Positions 10,170 to 56,097 of a stretch of DNA of 64,000 bases are shown here, piece after piece. The notes below the pieces were generated by a model. The model did not search any database and was not told the origin of the DNA. It saw only the letters and a program-made list of their open reading frames with translations. Source of the DNA: Spirochaetaceae bacterium (GTDB taxonomy: Bacteria > Spirochaetota > Spirochaetia > Treponematales > Rectinemataceae); NCBI GenBank assembly GCA_025355995.1, contig JANXYQ010000076.1, positions 62,001 through 126,000 of the forward strand, given 5' to 3'. How positions within the stretch are numbered: position 1 is the first letter of the stretch; each line of letters begins with the position of its first letter. Both the position numbers and the translations under genes were made by a program.

Positions 10170-10496
10170 GGGGGAGAACATCCACCAAGTCGGAATCCGC
10201 GCTGATAACCGTCGTATGCGTGGGTCCCAGCTTCGAGAGAAACGCGGAGCTCGCTCGGTCCATCGTGCCTTTGGCGCGAGATCCGCTTGGTTCTTGGGGC
10301 GGATACGGCTTGAGGGCCCGATGGCCTGCGGAAGCGCTCGCCCCGCGTTCTCTCGGCGTCCCGCGCCCTCCCCGATAGTCATGCGCGGATTCCACCTCAG
10401 GAGGATTCGTCTCCCCCTCGCTCCGGCCTCCTCGGCAAGGCGCGTTGTGCGATATCGCGCCTTGCCTGCGGTGGCCTGCGCTCCCCCCACTCCGCG
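10170..10496. other. Convergent intergenic region, no gene seen
   Basis: 327 bp between the stop of the TPR gene and the stop of mutL. The open frames here are Arg/Pro-rich with no SD. The only structure that I can support is the long hairpin listed separately. I see no tRNA, RNase P, tmRNA or SRP RNA signature. Confidence 0.6.
10434..10466. terminator. 11-bp perfect hairpin between convergent genes
   Basis: GGCAAGGCGCG (10434-10444), 11-nt loop, CGCGCCTTGCC (10456-10466). It lies close to the mutL stop and could end transcripts from both sides, but neither side has a T tract, so intrinsic termination is uncertain. Confidence 0.4.
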
Positions 10497-50051: not shown

Positions 50052-50076
50052 CGGTCGGGTTCGAAAATAAGTTGAT

Positions 50077-50107
50077 TGCAGTTGCCGGCGAAGGAATTGG
50101 GCAACTG
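50077..50107 (+). promoter_or_regulatory. Intercistronic hairpin between potC and potD
   Basis: GCAGTTGCC, 13-nt loop, GGCAACTGC, a 9-bp perfect stem without a T tract. Hairpins at this position often stabilise the binding-protein mRNA so that more PotD than permease is made. Confidence 0.5.
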
Positions 50108-50183
50108 CGGGCGTGGCCATGGTAGTGCCGCGCCGCGGACGGCCCTCGGCTGCCCGAACCCACATGGTAAAAGGGAGGACGAC

Positions 50184-51248
50184 ATGAAACGTCTTCTCCG
50201 CGCGGCTGCCGTCCTGGCTGCCCTGTCTCTCTTCCTGGGTCTCTCTCTCGGCCTCGGCTCCTGCTCGAAGAAGGGCGATGAGCCGAAGAAGCTGTACATC
50301 TTCAATTGGACGTACTATACGCCTGACTCGGTGATAGCCAAGTTCGAGAAGGAGTACAACTGCAAGGTTGTCTACGATTCGTTCGATTCCAACGAGACCA
50401 TGTTCGCCAAGCTCAAGGCGGGCGGCTCCAACTACGATATCGTGTTCCCTTCCGCCGATTACGTGTCCATCATGATCAACCAGAAGATGCTTGCCCCCAT
50501 CGACAGGACTAAGCTCGCGAATTTCAGGAACATCGATCCGCTGGTGCTCGCCCGATCCAAGGACTACGACCCGGACAACAAGTTCTCGGTACCCTATTAC
50601 ATGGGCGCGGCGGGCGTGGCGGTCAACAAGACCAAGGTCAAGAAGTACGAGCGCAGCTGGTCCATCTTCTCCCGCAAGGACCTCAAGGAGAAGATGACGA
50701 TGCTCGACGACATGCGCGAGGTGATGGGCGACGCCTTGGCCTTCCAGGGCAAGTCCGTCAACTCCGTGAGCGACGCCGACGTCAAGGCGGCCGAGGAGCT
50801 CGTCAACAAGACCTGGAAGCCCAACCTGTTGAAGTTCGACGCGGAAGCCTTCGCCAAGGGCTTCGCCGCCGGCGAGTTCTGGGTCGCCCAAGGCTACGCC
50901 GAGTCGATCTTCGCGGAGTATGACGCCGCCAAGCGCGCCGACGTCGATTTCTTCATCCCCAAGGAGGGCGGCCCGCTCTACATCGACTCCATGGTCATCC
51001 TCAAGAACTCCAAGAGCCAGGACCTGGCCCTCAAGTTCATCGACTTCATCCACAGGCCCGAGATCTACGCCGAGTTCTGCGACGCCTTCGGCTTCCCCGC
51101 GACTGCCAACGTGCCCGCGCGGGCGCTCAAGAAGGGTGACATGTGGTACAAGGCCGAGGACCTCGCCAAGTGCGAGCTCAAGCTCGACCTCGGGGCGGAC
51201 CTCGAGAAGTACAACGCCGCCTGGCAGGAGATCAAGGTCGGGAAGTAA
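50184..51248 (+). CDS. potD: Spermidine/putrescine-binding lipoprotein PotD
   Basis: A 354-residue solute-binding protein. The signal peptide ends in the lipobox LGLGSC (Cys at about 26), so it is membrane-anchored. LYIFNWTYYTPDSVIAKFEK is the typical PotD/PotF start, and SNYDIVFPSADYV and VPYYMGAAGVAVN line the polyamine cleft. GGGAGG lies 7 nt before the ATG. Last gene of potABCD. Confidence 0.94.
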   Translation: MKRLLRAAAVLAALSLFLGLSLGLGSCSKKGDEPKKLYIFNWTYYTPDSVIAKFEKEYNCKVVYDSFDSNETMFAKLKAGGSNYDIVFPSADYVSIMINQKMLAPIDRTKLANFRNIDPLVLARSKDYDPDNKFSVPYYMGAAGVAVNKTKVKKYERSWSIFSRKDLKEKMTMLDDMREVMGDALAFQGKSVNSVSDADVKAAEELVNKTWKPNLLKFDAEAFAKGFAAGEFWVAQGYAESIFAEYDAAKRADVDFFIPKEGGPLYIDSMVILKNSKSQDLALKFIDFIHRPEIYAEFCDAFGFPATANVPARALKKGDMWYKAEDLAKCELKLDLGADLEKYNAAWQEIKVGK

Positions 51249-51637
51249 GGGGGGAGAAAGGGATCGTCCTTGAGACAGCACTCCCCGCTGTCGATCGATA
51301 GCATGGCGGAAGAACCTTTCCATGGCTGCCCGAGGTGAGGCCTGTCTCGCGAATCCGCGTACCTCGCTTCGCCTCGATTCATTGGGGCTCCGCGAGGCCC
51401 GTGGTTCGCGAGACACCCACCGCCCTACGGCAGTCCTTAACAGTGTCGCTGCGTCTACCCGTTCACGCCTCATTCAGTTTCGAGGACGGGGCCAGTGTTC
51501 CTTCCCAACGGGGAGTCCTGCTGGTCCTCGCTGGACATTGACGGAATTTTCCGCGTCTCCCCCACGCTTCGAAGTCCTCGCGAAGGCGAATCAGTTGTGC
51601 GCCTTCGCTCCGGTCTTCTCCGCTTCCCCCACACCGG
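51249..51637. other. Hairpin-rich intergenic region beside the recombinase
   Basis: 389 bp between the potD and recombinase stops with no supportable gene. It contains GTCTCGCGAA (51344-51353) pairing with TTCGCGAGAC (51405-51414), enclosing a second stem GCCTCG/CGAGGC (51371-51376 with 51393-51398), and GCGAAGGCG/CGCCTTCGC (51580-51588 with 51600-51608). A further 8-bp dyad lies at 51647-51670 inside the recombinase 3' end. The folded arms resemble recombination substrates or a structured RNA. I found no integron attC core (GTTRRRY / RYYYAAC). Confidence 0.5.
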
Positions 51638-52525
51638 TTACGACGCGGTGGGCAGCAAGTATTGCCCACCCTCGCACTCCAATCCCTGGTCCACCGATAT
51701 CGAGCTCGAGTCCAGGGGGCTCACGATGCTCAGCATGTCGAGCCTCTGCATATGAAGATAGATCATCGTCGAGCCGATCGAGCTGTGTCCCAAAAGCTTC
51801 ATGATGTAGAACAGATTGGTGTTGCCCTCGAGGAGATGAGTCGCGAAGGAATGGCGCAGGGTGTGGACATGGGCGTCTTTCCTGTTCGCCTCCGAGGCGA
51901 GCATCTGGAAGGTGCGCTGGATCTGGCGGATTGGGATGGGCCGATCGATGTTCCGTTGGGAATAGAATAGATAGTTTTTTGGCTTGTAGCGGTTGAGATA
52001 CCTTTCGAGCAGGTCCGCCGTCTTGCTGCCGAGGATGGTAAATCGATCCTTTCGGTTCTTCGAGTCACGGACGTGGATGACGCGCCTATTGAAGTCGATG
52101 TCCGAGCAGGCCAGGTTGGCGGCCTCCGATACGCGCAGGCCCGCGGAATATATGAGCGCGAAGATAGTCTTGTATCGCAGGGTCCTGCAATGGCTGAGGA
52201 TGGACTGGATCTCCGACTGATCCAGGACGGCGGGAAGCTTGAACGGAATCCGCGGGGCGGGGACGCGGTCGAGGAAATGCTCGCGATCGTGAAAGCGATA
52301 GAAGAGCTTGATCGCGCTGTAATAATTGTGAAGGCTCGTCGGGCTGGTTCCCTTCGCGATCAAGCCGAGGAAGAAAGCCTTCGCCTCCGAAGGGGATGCG
52401 GCCAGGGGCGACTTGCCCAGGTATGCGGCGAAGCGGGCCATATACTTGATATACATCGCTTGAGTTTTCGCGCTGTAGCCGCGCAATTTCATTTCATCGA
52501 TCATCGATTCTCGCAAGGCGCCCAT
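51638..52525 (-). CDS. Tyrosine recombinase/integrase (XerC/D-like)
   Basis: A 295-residue recombinase. A SAM-like N-terminal core-binding domain (MIDEMKLRGYSAKTQAMYIK) is followed by the catalytic domain with Arg in SAGLRVSEAANL (about 130), HTLRHSFATHLL (His/Arg pair, about 223), GHSSIGSTMIY (His and Tyr, about 250). All catalytic residues are present, so it should be active. Base composition is lower in GC than neighbours, suggesting transfer. It is not at a Xer locus; resembles transposon-borne integrases. GAGGGGG lies 7 nt before the ATG, with its own promoter. Confidence 0.88.
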   Translation of the reverse strand: MGALRESMIDEMKLRGYSAKTQAMYIKYMARFAAYLGKSPLAASPSEAKAFFLGLIAKGTSPTSLHNYYSAIKLFYRFHDREHFLDRVPAPRIPFKLPAVLDQSEIQSILSHCRTLRYKTIFALIYSAGLRVSEAANLACSDIDFNRRVIHVRDSKNRKDRFTILGSKTADLLERYLNRYKPKNYLFYSQRNIDRPIPIRQIQRTFQMLASEANRKDAHVHTLRHSFATHLLEGNTNLFYIMKLLGHSSIGSTMIYLHMQRLDMLSIVSPLDSSSISVDQGLECEGGQYLLPTAS

Positions 52526-52556
52526 CCGTACCCCCTCAGGAAAACATAGTTAGTAT

Positions 52557-52585
52557 ATTATAATGGACGCGCGGAGCGCGGGCAA
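52557..52585 (-). promoter_or_regulatory. Promoter of the recombinase
   Basis: TTGCCC (52585-52580), 17 nt, TATAAT (52562-52557), a perfect -10. Confidence 0.65.
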
Positions 52586-52700
52586 CGGCGGCGTTGACTG
52601 CGGGTTCGGGCGTAAGGGCTCAGGGAAAGGATCGGGATGGTCCTCCCTTTTCTTCTCCCGACAGTAGCGCCTCGACTTCCGATCACGTAGAATACATCCC

Positions 52701-53957
52701 ATGGAAACTCAAGCACCCTCCTGGAATATCCTCGTAGTCAATTGCGGCAGCTCCTCGCTCAAGTACGAGGTCTATCAGATGCCCCAGCGCCGAAGCCTGG
52801 GCAAGGGCCTCGTGGAGAGGATAGGGGAGGCGACTGGCAGCCTTTCCCAGCAGGGCTCCAAGGGCGAGCTCAAGCGCGAGCTCCCCATCCCCGACCACGC
52901 CGCCGCCTTCGCCCTCGTCAAGGAGGCGCTGACCGAGGCCGCCGCGGGCCTGATAGCCGGCATCGGCGAGATAGCCGCGGTGGGTCACCGCGTCGTGCAC
53001 GGGGGCGAGCGCTACGCCGCCTCGGTTGTAATCGACGCCGAGGTGATAGCCGCGATTGAGGAGAGCGCCGAGCTGGCTCCTCTGCACAACCCGCCCAATC
53101 TCACTGGCATCGCCCAGGCGCGGGCGATGTTGCCCGACGTGTGCCAGGTCGCGGTTTTCGATACGGCCTTCCATCAGACCATGCCGCCGACCGCGTACCT
53201 CTACGCCCTGCCTTACGAGTTCTACGAGAAGTACCGCATCCGACGCTACGGCTTCCACGGCACCAGCCACCGGTTCATCTCGGGCAGGGCCATGACCCTC
53301 CTCCAGCGCTCGCCCGAGAACACCAACGTGATCAGCTGCCACCTGGGGAACGGCGCCTCGATCACGGCGGTCGAGCACGGGAGGTCCATCGACACCTCCA
53401 TGGGCTTCACTCCGCTCGAGGGGCTCGTGATGGGCACGCGCTGCGGGGACATCGACCCGGCGATCCTGAGCTTCCTCGAGGCTAGGGGCCTGTCCTCCGC
53501 CGAACTCAACTCCATCATGAACAAGAAGAGCGGCCTCCTCGGCCTCTCCGGCATCTCCAACGACCTGCGGGACCTCGAGCGAGAGGCCGAGGCCGGGAAC
53601 AAGCGCGCGGTCGACGCCCTCGAGGTCTACGCCTACCGGGTGAGGAAGTACATCGGCGCCTATATCGCCAACTTGGTGAAGGTGGACGCGATAATCTTCT
53701 CGGGCGGGATCGGCCAGTACGGGGTCAAGATGCGCGAGCGGATCTGCCACCGGCTCGAGAACCTCGGCGTCTTCATGGACTACGAGCTCAATCGCTCTCG
53801 GGGCTCCCAGGAGGGCCTGGTTTCGGCCGCCTTCTCGCCCATATCGATACTGGTCGTTCCGACCAACGAGGAGCTCCAGATCGCCATCGACGCCTATGAA
53901 CTCGCCTTTTCCGGGGAGGCGGGCTTCCGCAAGCGCCAGGGAGACATCACGTTATAG
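52701..53957 (+). CDS. ackA: Acetate kinase
   Basis: A 418-residue kinase converting acetyl phosphate plus ADP to acetate plus ATP, the energy step of fermentation. It has LVVNCGSSSLKYEV (N-site), GHRVVHGGERY, RYGFHGTSHRF, HLGNGAS and the ATP-site FSGGIGQYG. No pta is adjacent. No SD is present; TAGAAT lies 7 nt before the ATG, though a -35 is poor. Two-to-three-residue insertions apart, length is normal. Confidence 0.95.
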   Translation: METQAPSWNILVVNCGSSSLKYEVYQMPQRRSLGKGLVERIGEATGSLSQQGSKGELKRELPIPDHAAAFALVKEALTEAAAGLIAGIGEIAAVGHRVVHGGERYAASVVIDAEVIAAIEESAELAPLHNPPNLTGIAQARAMLPDVCQVAVFDTAFHQTMPPTAYLYALPYEFYEKYRIRRYGFHGTSHRFISGRAMTLLQRSPENTNVISCHLGNGASITAVEHGRSIDTSMGFTPLEGLVMGTRCGDIDPAILSFLEARGLSSAELNSIMNKKSGLLGLSGISNDLRDLEREAEAGNKRAVDALEVYAYRVRKYIGAYIANLVKVDAIIFSGGIGQYGVKMRERICHRLENLGVFMDYELNRSRGSQEGLVSAAFSPISILVVPTNEELQIAIDAYELAFSGEAGFRKRQGDITL

Positions 53958-54009
53958 GGGGAATCGACGGCGGGGCCGGCATATTATGGCTGCCCTACCG
54001 TCTTTGCCG

Positions 54010-55035
54010 CTATTGGCTTACCCATACCTCATTGGTGGCATTGCTGCCGCTCCCGATGATGCCGCCCATTAAATAAAGCTTGCCGTTGAGGAACTCGGCG
54101 CGCATGCCGAATCGCGGGGTGAAGGGGGGATTGATCGTAAGCTGCGTCCAGTTTGTGCCGTCCGTCGTGATCCAGACATCGTTGAGGGCCGTTCCCGAGG
54201 CGTTTTTGCCTCCGATCAAGTACATTGTAGCGCTGTTTGCCGCGAGCGCAAAATCGGTCCTGGGACCGAAAGGCGCGGCATTGACCAGCTGGGTGAATGC
54301 CCCGCCGGTGCTGGTTGACACCTTGGCGTTGACCGTAGTCCCATCCGTTCCGCCGATGACAAAGATTTTATTGAGGAAGACAACCGCCTGATGTCCGTCG
54401 ATCTGCCCTAATCCGTCGTTGGTAACCATATTGATCGTGGGTATGCCATCCGTGAAATAATCCATATCGCTCGTATACAGCGGCGTTATCGACGAGACCT
54501 GCCCTCCTATGAGATAAACGCTCGTCCCGTACCGCAGGCCCGCGGAAGTCGATCGAACCGTCGAAGTTATGGGAGAAGGACTCCAAATCATCGCCGAATA
54601 TTGTTCGGTATTCGCGATGGGAATCATGGCGGCCGTACCGCCGAAGGCGTTGAGGAAGGTCCCGTACATGGCGAGGACGACACCCTTTCCTCCCGCCGCG
54701 CCGGGATTGCCCAGCGGCGTCCACGTCGTGCCGTCGAAAGACGAGAAATCCTTATACGAGGCTACGCCGGTCGGGTCTCCCGATCCGCCCAGGACGAAGA
54801 TCGCGGGCGGGCTGCCAAATACTGTTGAACCGAAATACGCGCGGGCTTGCGTCATGGGCGCGCTCGTAGTAGTCCAGACCCTTCCGAGCGTCACGGGGTT
54901 TGTTCCGCCCGGATCGAGGCTGTTGCTGCGCGTGGCCGATTTCAGATCGCCCAGGCCGGGCATCGGAGAGCAGGCCTCGAGCGCAACGACGATCGCGGCG
55001 ACGAAGGTAAGCGATATTCCTGTCAAGGGTTTCAT
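54010..55035 (-). CDS. Kelch-repeat lipoprotein
   Basis: A 341-residue protein. Signal peptide with lipobox VALEAC (Cys about 22). Six or so kelch-type blades follow, marked by FVLGGSGD, YLIGGQVSS, FVIGGTDGT, YLIGGKNASG and LYLMGGIIG with intervening W motifs, so a beta-propeller exposed outside the membrane. Composition is lower in GC and Thr/Ser-rich relative to neighbours. It lies 12 nt after the CsgG-like gene on the same strand and is probably co-transcribed with it. Confidence 0.85.
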   Translation of the reverse strand: MKPLTGISLTFVAAIVVALEACSPMPGLGDLKSATRSNSLDPGGTNPVTLGRVWTTTSAPMTQARAYFGSTVFGSPPAIFVLGGSGDPTGVASYKDFSSFDGTTWTPLGNPGAAGGKGVVLAMYGTFLNAFGGTAAMIPIANTEQYSAMIWSPSPITSTVRSTSAGLRYGTSVYLIGGQVSSITPLYTSDMDYFTDGIPTINMVTNDGLGQIDGHQAVVFLNKIFVIGGTDGTTVNAKVSTSTGGAFTQLVNAAPFGPRTDFALAANSATMYLIGGKNASGTALNDVWITTDGTNWTQLTINPPFTPRFGMRAEFLNGKLYLMGGIIGSGSNATNEVWVSQ

Positions 55036-55047
55036 GCTGGCCTCCTC

Positions 55048-56004
55048 TCAGTAGCTCAGGGAAACGAGAAGGCCCGACGGCAGGGCAGCGATTTGCCATC
55101 CGGCCGCCTTGCCCGCCTGAGCGCGCGCGGGCGAGGGGAATCTCAGGATCGCCAGCACCGCTCCGCTCGCGGCCAGGACGCCGCCTCCGATGTAGCAATA
55201 TAGGCGCGCATCAGTCAGCGGCTTGATTTTCCCATAATCGTTCGTGTAGGCAGTCCAGAGGGCAGCGAAGTCGGCTCCCGCGCCTGCGTTCGCATAGGCC
55301 GCATTGGCGGCGACGGCATCGTCGTAGGCCTTTGCGGCCTTCGCGTCGAAGTAGAAGTATCCCGTCGCGACCGCGCCGAGCCCGATCGCCATCGAGCCGT
55401 AGCCTACCCAGTTGAGCGCGGCCGGGCGGCCGCGCGGCGGCGCGTTCGAGGGCGGAGGGGCCGCCGCCGGTTTTTTCGGTTGCGGCGCCGAGGCGTCGGC
55501 CGCGGCTCCGCCCTGCGCCGAACCGCCCTCGAGGCGATACGACGCGTCGGCCAGGATGCCGACGGTGGCCTTCATCCTGGATACGATGTCCTTCATGGTC
55601 GGGGCCTGCATGTCCTCCGCGGTCACGAAGCGCCCGGTCTCGAGGTCGAAGAGCTGCACGGTGACGAATACGGTCCCGCCGAGGGTGCCGACGGACCCGA
55701 CGATAGCCCGCTTGACGTTGAGCAGCTTCCCTACCTGTATGGCATCGTTGGCGGTGGTGAAGCCATTGGTCTGGAATTCGGTTTCGGACATGATTTTCGT
55801 GGTCTGCTCGCGGGAGACGACCTCGAATCGACCGGTCTTTATGAACTCGTTGCGCAGCATCTCGCTCAGCATCGAGCTGTCCGCTTGGACATCGGGTGAC
55901 TTGGCCGTGAGGTCGAAAACGACGATCCTGATCGCTTGGTTTTGAGCGAAAAGCGGGAAGAGAGAACACATAAGAATGAAGATCGCCGCTATCTTCCTGG
56001 CCAT
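55048..56004 (-). CDS. CsgG-domain envelope protein
   Basis: A 318-residue protein. Signal peptide (KIAAIFILMCSLFPLFAQ). Residues about 22-155 are a CsgG-like domain (IRIVVFDLTAKSPDVQ, SEMLRNEFIKTGRFEVVSRE, KRAIVGSVGTLGGTVFVTVQ). An Ala/Pro linker precedes two hydrophobic segments (LNWVGYGSMAIGLGAVATGY and YCYIGGGVLAASGAVLAIL) that would anchor it in the membrane. GGAGG lies 4 nt before the ATG at 56004. CsgG proper forms a secretion pore; here the domain probably assembles or senses in the periplasm. Paired with the kelch lipoprotein. Confidence 0.8.
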   Translation of the reverse strand: MARKIAAIFILMCSLFPLFAQNQAIRIVVFDLTAKSPDVQADSSMLSEMLRNEFIKTGRFEVVSREQTTKIMSETEFQTNGFTTANDAIQVGKLLNVKRAIVGSVGTLGGTVFVTVQLFDLETGRFVTAEDMQAPTMKDIVSRMKATVGILADASYRLEGGSAQGGAAADASAPQPKKPAAAPPPSNAPPRGRPAALNWVGYGSMAIGLGAVATGYFYFDAKAAKAYDDAVAANAAYANAGAGADFAALWTAYTNDYGKIKPLTDARLYCYIGGGVLAASGAVLAILRFPSPARAQAGKAAGWQIAALPSGLLVSLSY

Positions 56005-56097
56005 ACAACCTCCGGTTCTCATAAAAACAATAATCGACCCGTTTCGATAGTCCTCGCCAAGCCACATCGTTTATGGAAATCTATGCGTTCATAAATC

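Follow-up and report, generated by a model that had tools for sequence, protein, structure and literature searches.

A gene for a tyrosine recombinase lies beside a cluster of palindromes in the window, the 64,000-nucleotide stretch of spirochaete DNA analyzed here, and this raises the question of whether the two belong together. The preliminary description suspected that the palindromes fold into single-stranded arms of the kind used by integron-type systems, and it named an RNA as the other candidate.

The recombinase gene and its surroundings

The gene product combines a SAM-like domain at its N-terminus with the catalytic domain of phage integrases. The motifs GLRVSE, SKNRKDR, HTLRHSFATH, LGHSS and MIYLH, which we take to supply the catalytic R-K-H-R-H-Y set, are all present, in agreement with the earlier assertion that every catalytic residue is there; the gene appears intact. 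The best match among solved structures is PDB 4a8e (3.8e-36), and both domain order and catalytic motifs are shared with XerA/XerC-like tyrosine recombinases (4a8e, 5hxy). Unlike these, the protein has an extra tail of about 35 residues beyond the matched part, and it is encoded by an accessory gene in a genome that also contains a second XerA-like gene and, on contig C39, a pair of more distant matches. The second XerA-like gene (C84:25329-26126) is 41% identical, and its contig also carries DUF2971 and HEPN_Swt1 genes. We use the name XerA-like only, because the protein scores 211.3 bits against NF040815 (XerA), for which the curated cut-off is 220. Against the NCBIfam model integrase_gron it falls far below the cut-off (141 versus 265 bits). 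The I2 insertion that integron integrases (IntI) carry between catalytic patches was not found in it; IntI4 (2a3v) aligned with it in two pieces, chain residues 174-246 standing opposite 32 query residues.

In a sister species (G001), the orthologue is 75% identical and occupies the same potD/ruvA locus; the stretch 52701-56067, which here places ackA and two more open reading frames between recombinase and ruvA, is absent from that place. Orthologues in other genera neighbor pheS/PPDK-like, TrkH or YgjP genes, and because these neighbors vary we regard the recombinase as a solitary accessory gene. Its GC content, 56.8%, is indeed lower than that of its surroundings: the window has 65.5%, potD 60.4% and ackA 65.1%. 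A promoter of its own had also been proposed. The perfect -10 hexamer is there, but the site as a whole, a 10/12 match to the sigma-70 consensus, is a weak call, because shuffled sequences are expected to yield 0.6 such sites and one was found.

Table 1. Positions of the features within the window
Feature	Positions	Strand	Basis or remark
potD-like polyamine-binding protein gene	50076-51248	+	stop TAA 51246-51248, abutted by element
Copy of dispersed multi-hairpin element	51249-51633	+	pieces of it recur elsewhere in this genome
Module A	51343-51415	+	11-bp stem 51343-51353/51405-51415 with nested stem 51362-51367/51392-51397; inverted-repeat search, copies, covariation
3' module R1	51555-51633	+	covariance-model match, 88.8 bits
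9-bp variable hairpin of R1	51580-51608	+	arms 51580-51588/51600-51608
8-bp dyad within the end of the recombinase CDS	51647-51670	minus	arms 51647-51654/51663-51670; outside R1 match
XerA-like tyrosine recombinase gene, 295 aa	51638-52525	minus	PF00589 and PF13495; accessory gene of the genome
Promoter-like site upstream of recombinase, TTGCCC-17-TATAAT	52557-52585	minus	consensus match only
Second element copy	10170-10496	+	between two convergent stop codons; R1 core 10409-10491, 88.3 bits

The palindromes and their dispersed copies

The palindromes occupy the interval that separates the stop codon of potD from that of the recombinase. The element that they form begins with GGGGGG directly after the potD stop; its last bases are CCCCCACA, and 4 nt lie between it and the recombinase stop. 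The inverted repeat reported as 10 bp over 71 nt, and the stem nested in it, are real, although the repeat is in fact 11 bp, perfect, and spans 73 nt. The 9-bp inverted repeat was also recovered and is the variable hairpin of module R1, which in this copy reads CTCCCCCACGCTTC-(GAAG)-T-CC-TC-[hairpin]-TCC-GG-T-(CTTC)-TCCGCTTCCCCC. The 8-bp dyad exists as described; lying outside the R1 match, it is not a member of the repeat family. Four inverted arms of at least 9 bp occur in 389 nt, a number reached by none of 200 dinucleotide shuffles. Nevertheless, because 14 of 164 equally long tiles of the same window reach it too, the palindromes taken by themselves do not stand out. What raises them above chance is the covariation across copies, described below, together with an RNA-fold z-score of -4.77 for the plus strand (the DNA fold of the minus strand gave -2.19).

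A search of the genome with 51249-52600 revealed that the intergenic part recurs at other loci. After two pattern searches, a covariance model of R1 was built from eight copies of this genome; it matched 18 times here and 147 times in 34 of 58 relatives. The R1 consensus starts with GCTCCCCC-n-CGCT-n-C, four variable bases, T, CC, TC and the variable hairpin, and continues with two or three bases, GG, T, the complementary four bases and TCCGCTnCCCCC. Whole elements are bounded by GGGGGAGC on one side and CGCTnCCCCCaC on the other. Module A has a copy on contig C30 of the same genome (78-80% identity, with compensated stem changes) and recurs in G032, G037, G038 and others. One relative, G038, carries seven near-identical long copies on one strand between large open reading frames (C1:1197773-1220036; loci L114 and L115).

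The family occurs in many Treponema-like spirochaetes. An exact-pattern scan of an 84,980-species collection returned 33 stretches, 32 of them titled Treponema or with a name beginning Spirochaet-, and one from a Tannerella MAG. Rfam gave no match to the element, either at the gathering cut-off or at E<=1, and we rejected a known RNA on this basis; a phage- or plasmid-borne repeat was likewise rejected, there being no match in viral contigs or in phage and plasmid collections. Four sequence strings from the element had no match in 5.39 million open papers, and the listings from topic searches of the literature contained no description of the element. The available part of the RepRanger paper (PMC12306157) lists three Spirochaetota genomes, with Treponema not among them.

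Where do the copies lie? In this genome, the G-run of 15 of 18 sits at a stop codon; over all copies examined, the figure is 33 of 79 (79 of the 95 aligned copies; the rest were chiefly duplicate records of one locus, plus some copies from arrays). As a control, only six of 104 open reading frames at loci of this genome have a G5 run near the stop, and four of these are element loci. Many Treponema copies have a 5' flank that is merely A-rich, and some copies in G038 lie just upstream of a start codon instead.

The sister species provides evidence of insertion. Genes upstream of copies in this genome were sought there (12 of the 14 prepared; the gene from contig C70 is interrupted by N in the sister sequence), and all 12 were found. 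The single R1 match in the sister species lies on its contig C179, which holds none of the 12 loci. At the second copy in the window, the only empty site with both flanks aligned, we see TAA, element and TCA here, and two abutting stop codons in the sister species. This is an empty orthologous site, the criterion by which insertion of a MITE is recognized; no target-site duplication is visible at this sole clean site. The family is not foreign to the sister species, since a degenerate similar sequence follows a stop codon there at a paralogous place (L205). Some copies look inherited, such as the locus that G021 and G028 have in common (L129, L126).

Placement after stop codons, together with imperfect hairpins of variable terminal stem and the direct-repeat array of seven in G038, recalls integron attC sites, whether isolated or clustered without an integrase. 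According to the available part of PMC3607928, Treponema does have chromosomal integrons. The preliminary description had argued against classical attC sites from the lack of GTTRRRY cores, and we agree: neither GTTRRRY nor RYYYAAC occurs in 51249-51637, and only four of 86 family members contain one, against a mean of 6.3 in shuffled sequences. We rejected attC sites for this want of core boxes. Furthermore, G031 and G034, which we take to be T. denticola, are without an R1 match, and the tested genes of the G038 array are large open reading frames nearly without Pfam matches rather than small cassettes. Nor does an integrase adjoin the elements, which are dispersed after ordinary genes. Overall, we consider an attC origin of the copies extremely unlikely.

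Conserved structure and the folded strand

The hairpins are conserved as structure by compensatory change. On 86 distinct copies of R1, 97.2% of 1295 cells are paired and 413 cells have a two-sided change; such changes affect 15 of 17 pairs, and the covariation score is 0.612, compared with at most 0.143 for slid partners. The four-base stem, for example, occurs as GAAG, GGCG, GGCC or GCCC, each compensated by its complementary partner. Module A behaves similarly in ten copies (99.3% of 134 cells paired, two-sided change in nine of 14 pairs, covariation 0.602). An independent MAFFT alignment of eight R1 copies gave 91.8% paired cells and a covariation of 0.616, which matters because the A2 alignment had been obtained by fitting to the covariance model.

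Strong covariation of this kind, the RNA fold of the plus strand, which is more extreme than the DNA fold of the minus strand, and the sense orientation of 15 of 18 copies directly after stop codons would all suit a structured RNA, whether a 3' UTR or an independent transcript, that copies itself or is kept for mRNA stability or termination. RNA stems tolerate G-U pairs but not A-C, whereas in DNA both are mere mismatches. The paired columns of R1 in the 86 copies contain 15 G-U and 14 A-C cells, so that the excess of G-U over A-C expected of a structured RNA was not found. The acceptor stems of 13 tRNAs from the same loci, used as a control, have nine G-U and no A-C in 70 cells (Fisher p 0.014 for element versus tRNA); any bias of the covariance-model alignment would be, if anything, towards G-U. 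Because the two mispairs are equally rare, unlike in tRNA stems, these counts, from small samples, favor DNA folding rather than RNA. Several further observations argue against RNA: the element is absent at the same genes of the sister species, Rfam is silent even at the permissive threshold, no terminator-like site was found in 51249-51637, and some G038 copies precede start codons instead. We therefore think an RNA unlikely. The interpretation given in the preliminary description is supported in part: the arms are real, their structure is conserved and their pairing is DNA-like.

Recombinase, mobilizer and related repeats

If the palindromes were the site of the adjacent recombinase, recombined as folded single strands in the manner of an integron integrase, the two should travel together. 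Beyond the adjacency itself, folded arms with internal loops are compatible with such a site, and each of the six genomes whose recombinase is of the closest, window type carries elements, compared with 28 of 52 others, a nominal p of 0.037 at a threshold chosen post hoc, for six genomes that include two congeneric pairs. Other comparisons point the opposite way. The flank of the sister recombinase, the close homologue whose alignment had been suggested as a check, is unrelated and holds a different dispersed palindromic repeat. This repeat, about 110 bp long (L070 3598-3712), follows the sister recombinase and has about ten copies in that species; it had no significant match in the genome studied here. 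In other genera, the recombinase orthologues adjoin other genes, not elements.

We also compared, by eye, two tables of results for 392 genomes of the phylum. The element is present in at least 47, the recombinase (E<=1e-40) in 59, and both in at least eight. Thus 39 of the 47 element-bearing genomes are without a close recombinase, and 51 of the 59 recombinase genomes are without an element match; the element counts are lower bounds, since at most ten candidates per genome were scored. Among the listed matches, again compared by eye, the window alone has a recombinase match and an element within 3 kb, and one such coincidence is roughly the number to expect from scattered copies. The palindromes are therefore conserved in many genomes that do not have a close recombinase, and this, with the unrelated sister flank, led us to reject a recombinase-specific site; we rate that reading as very improbable. 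Both outcomes had been named in the preliminary description as ones that would refute its proposal. Coincidence most likely explains why recombinase and element are neighbors.

We conclude that the palindrome cluster is probably a non-autonomous REP/MITE-like DNA element and the recombinase an ordinary solitary neighbor. Two features, among others, prompt this reading: on the reverse strand, 54 of 86 copies carry GTAG, the REP tag, at the matching position (GAAG in the window copy), and REP termini frequently provide stop codons, as the accessible part of PMC3733652 reports. The element consists of a single imperfect hairpin or several, in which internal-loop bases are conserved and the stems vary freely yet stay Watson-Crick-perfect. 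In the mechanism that we propose, it may have spread, or may still spread, as folded single-stranded DNA recognized by a transposase acting in trans, an enzyme of the Y1 HUH/RAYT type being our first guess. The arms would then be kept perfect by DNA-level copying or by selection, and the XerA-like recombinase would be an ordinary solitary gene that became the element's neighbor by chance.

A Y1 transposase as the demonstrated mobilizer was rejected: searches gave no match in this genome or in the sister species, and although 30 of the 58 relatives have such an enzyme, it is found in 20 of 34 with the element and ten of 24 without (p 0.29). Among Y1 loci of other genomes, five of 42 have an R1 match (E<0.01), in a set that includes some loci chosen for an adjacency already seen. 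At one locus (L194, on contig C18 of G032), a RAYT-like Y1 gene lies between GGGGACAGAGCT repeats of its own, 287 bp from an R1 element; because these flanking repeats are different, we did not count the gene as a partner. G049 has 27 Y1 transposase matches in a single 2.3-Mb genome.

The resemblance to known systems is partial. As far as the consulted portion of PMC3733652 describes them, GTAG REP elements with their RAYTs are, like our element, short imperfect hairpins that fall into sub-families, the stems of which are alternative and complementary; they lie outside genes, near stop codons or overlapping them. The element differs from them in being longer (about 60-390 bp), with several hairpin modules and GGGGG/CCCCC ends, in its low copy number, in the GTAG missing from the window copy, and in that no Y1 gene was found in its own genome. 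It shares with MITEs and small mobile intergenic repeats, as characterized in the part of PMC2229807 available to us, a non-coding and dispersed nature, inverted ends and lineage-specific insertion; it differs in its stop-codon placement and in that neither a target duplication nor an autonomous partner was found. An alternative that we consider improbable is that Treponema-group spirochaetes possess a separate class of mobile DNA element that acts as a folded single strand. Its hairpin would resemble attC without the attC cores, and it would insert at stop codons, moved by an enzyme in a new role, possibly a XerA-like recombinase acting in trans.

Taking the REP/MITE-like reading as the better one, what looked like a recombinase site becomes a repeat family that spans the order, is clearly marked by its structure, can be searched for with a working model and offers insertion sites that can be tested; a false lead on integron-like activity is removed. 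Placement at stop codons would matter for the 3' ends of numerous ordinary genes. Should the mobile form be folded DNA, this spirochaete system would join the few single-strand movers, namely attC sites, IS200/IS605 and REPs.
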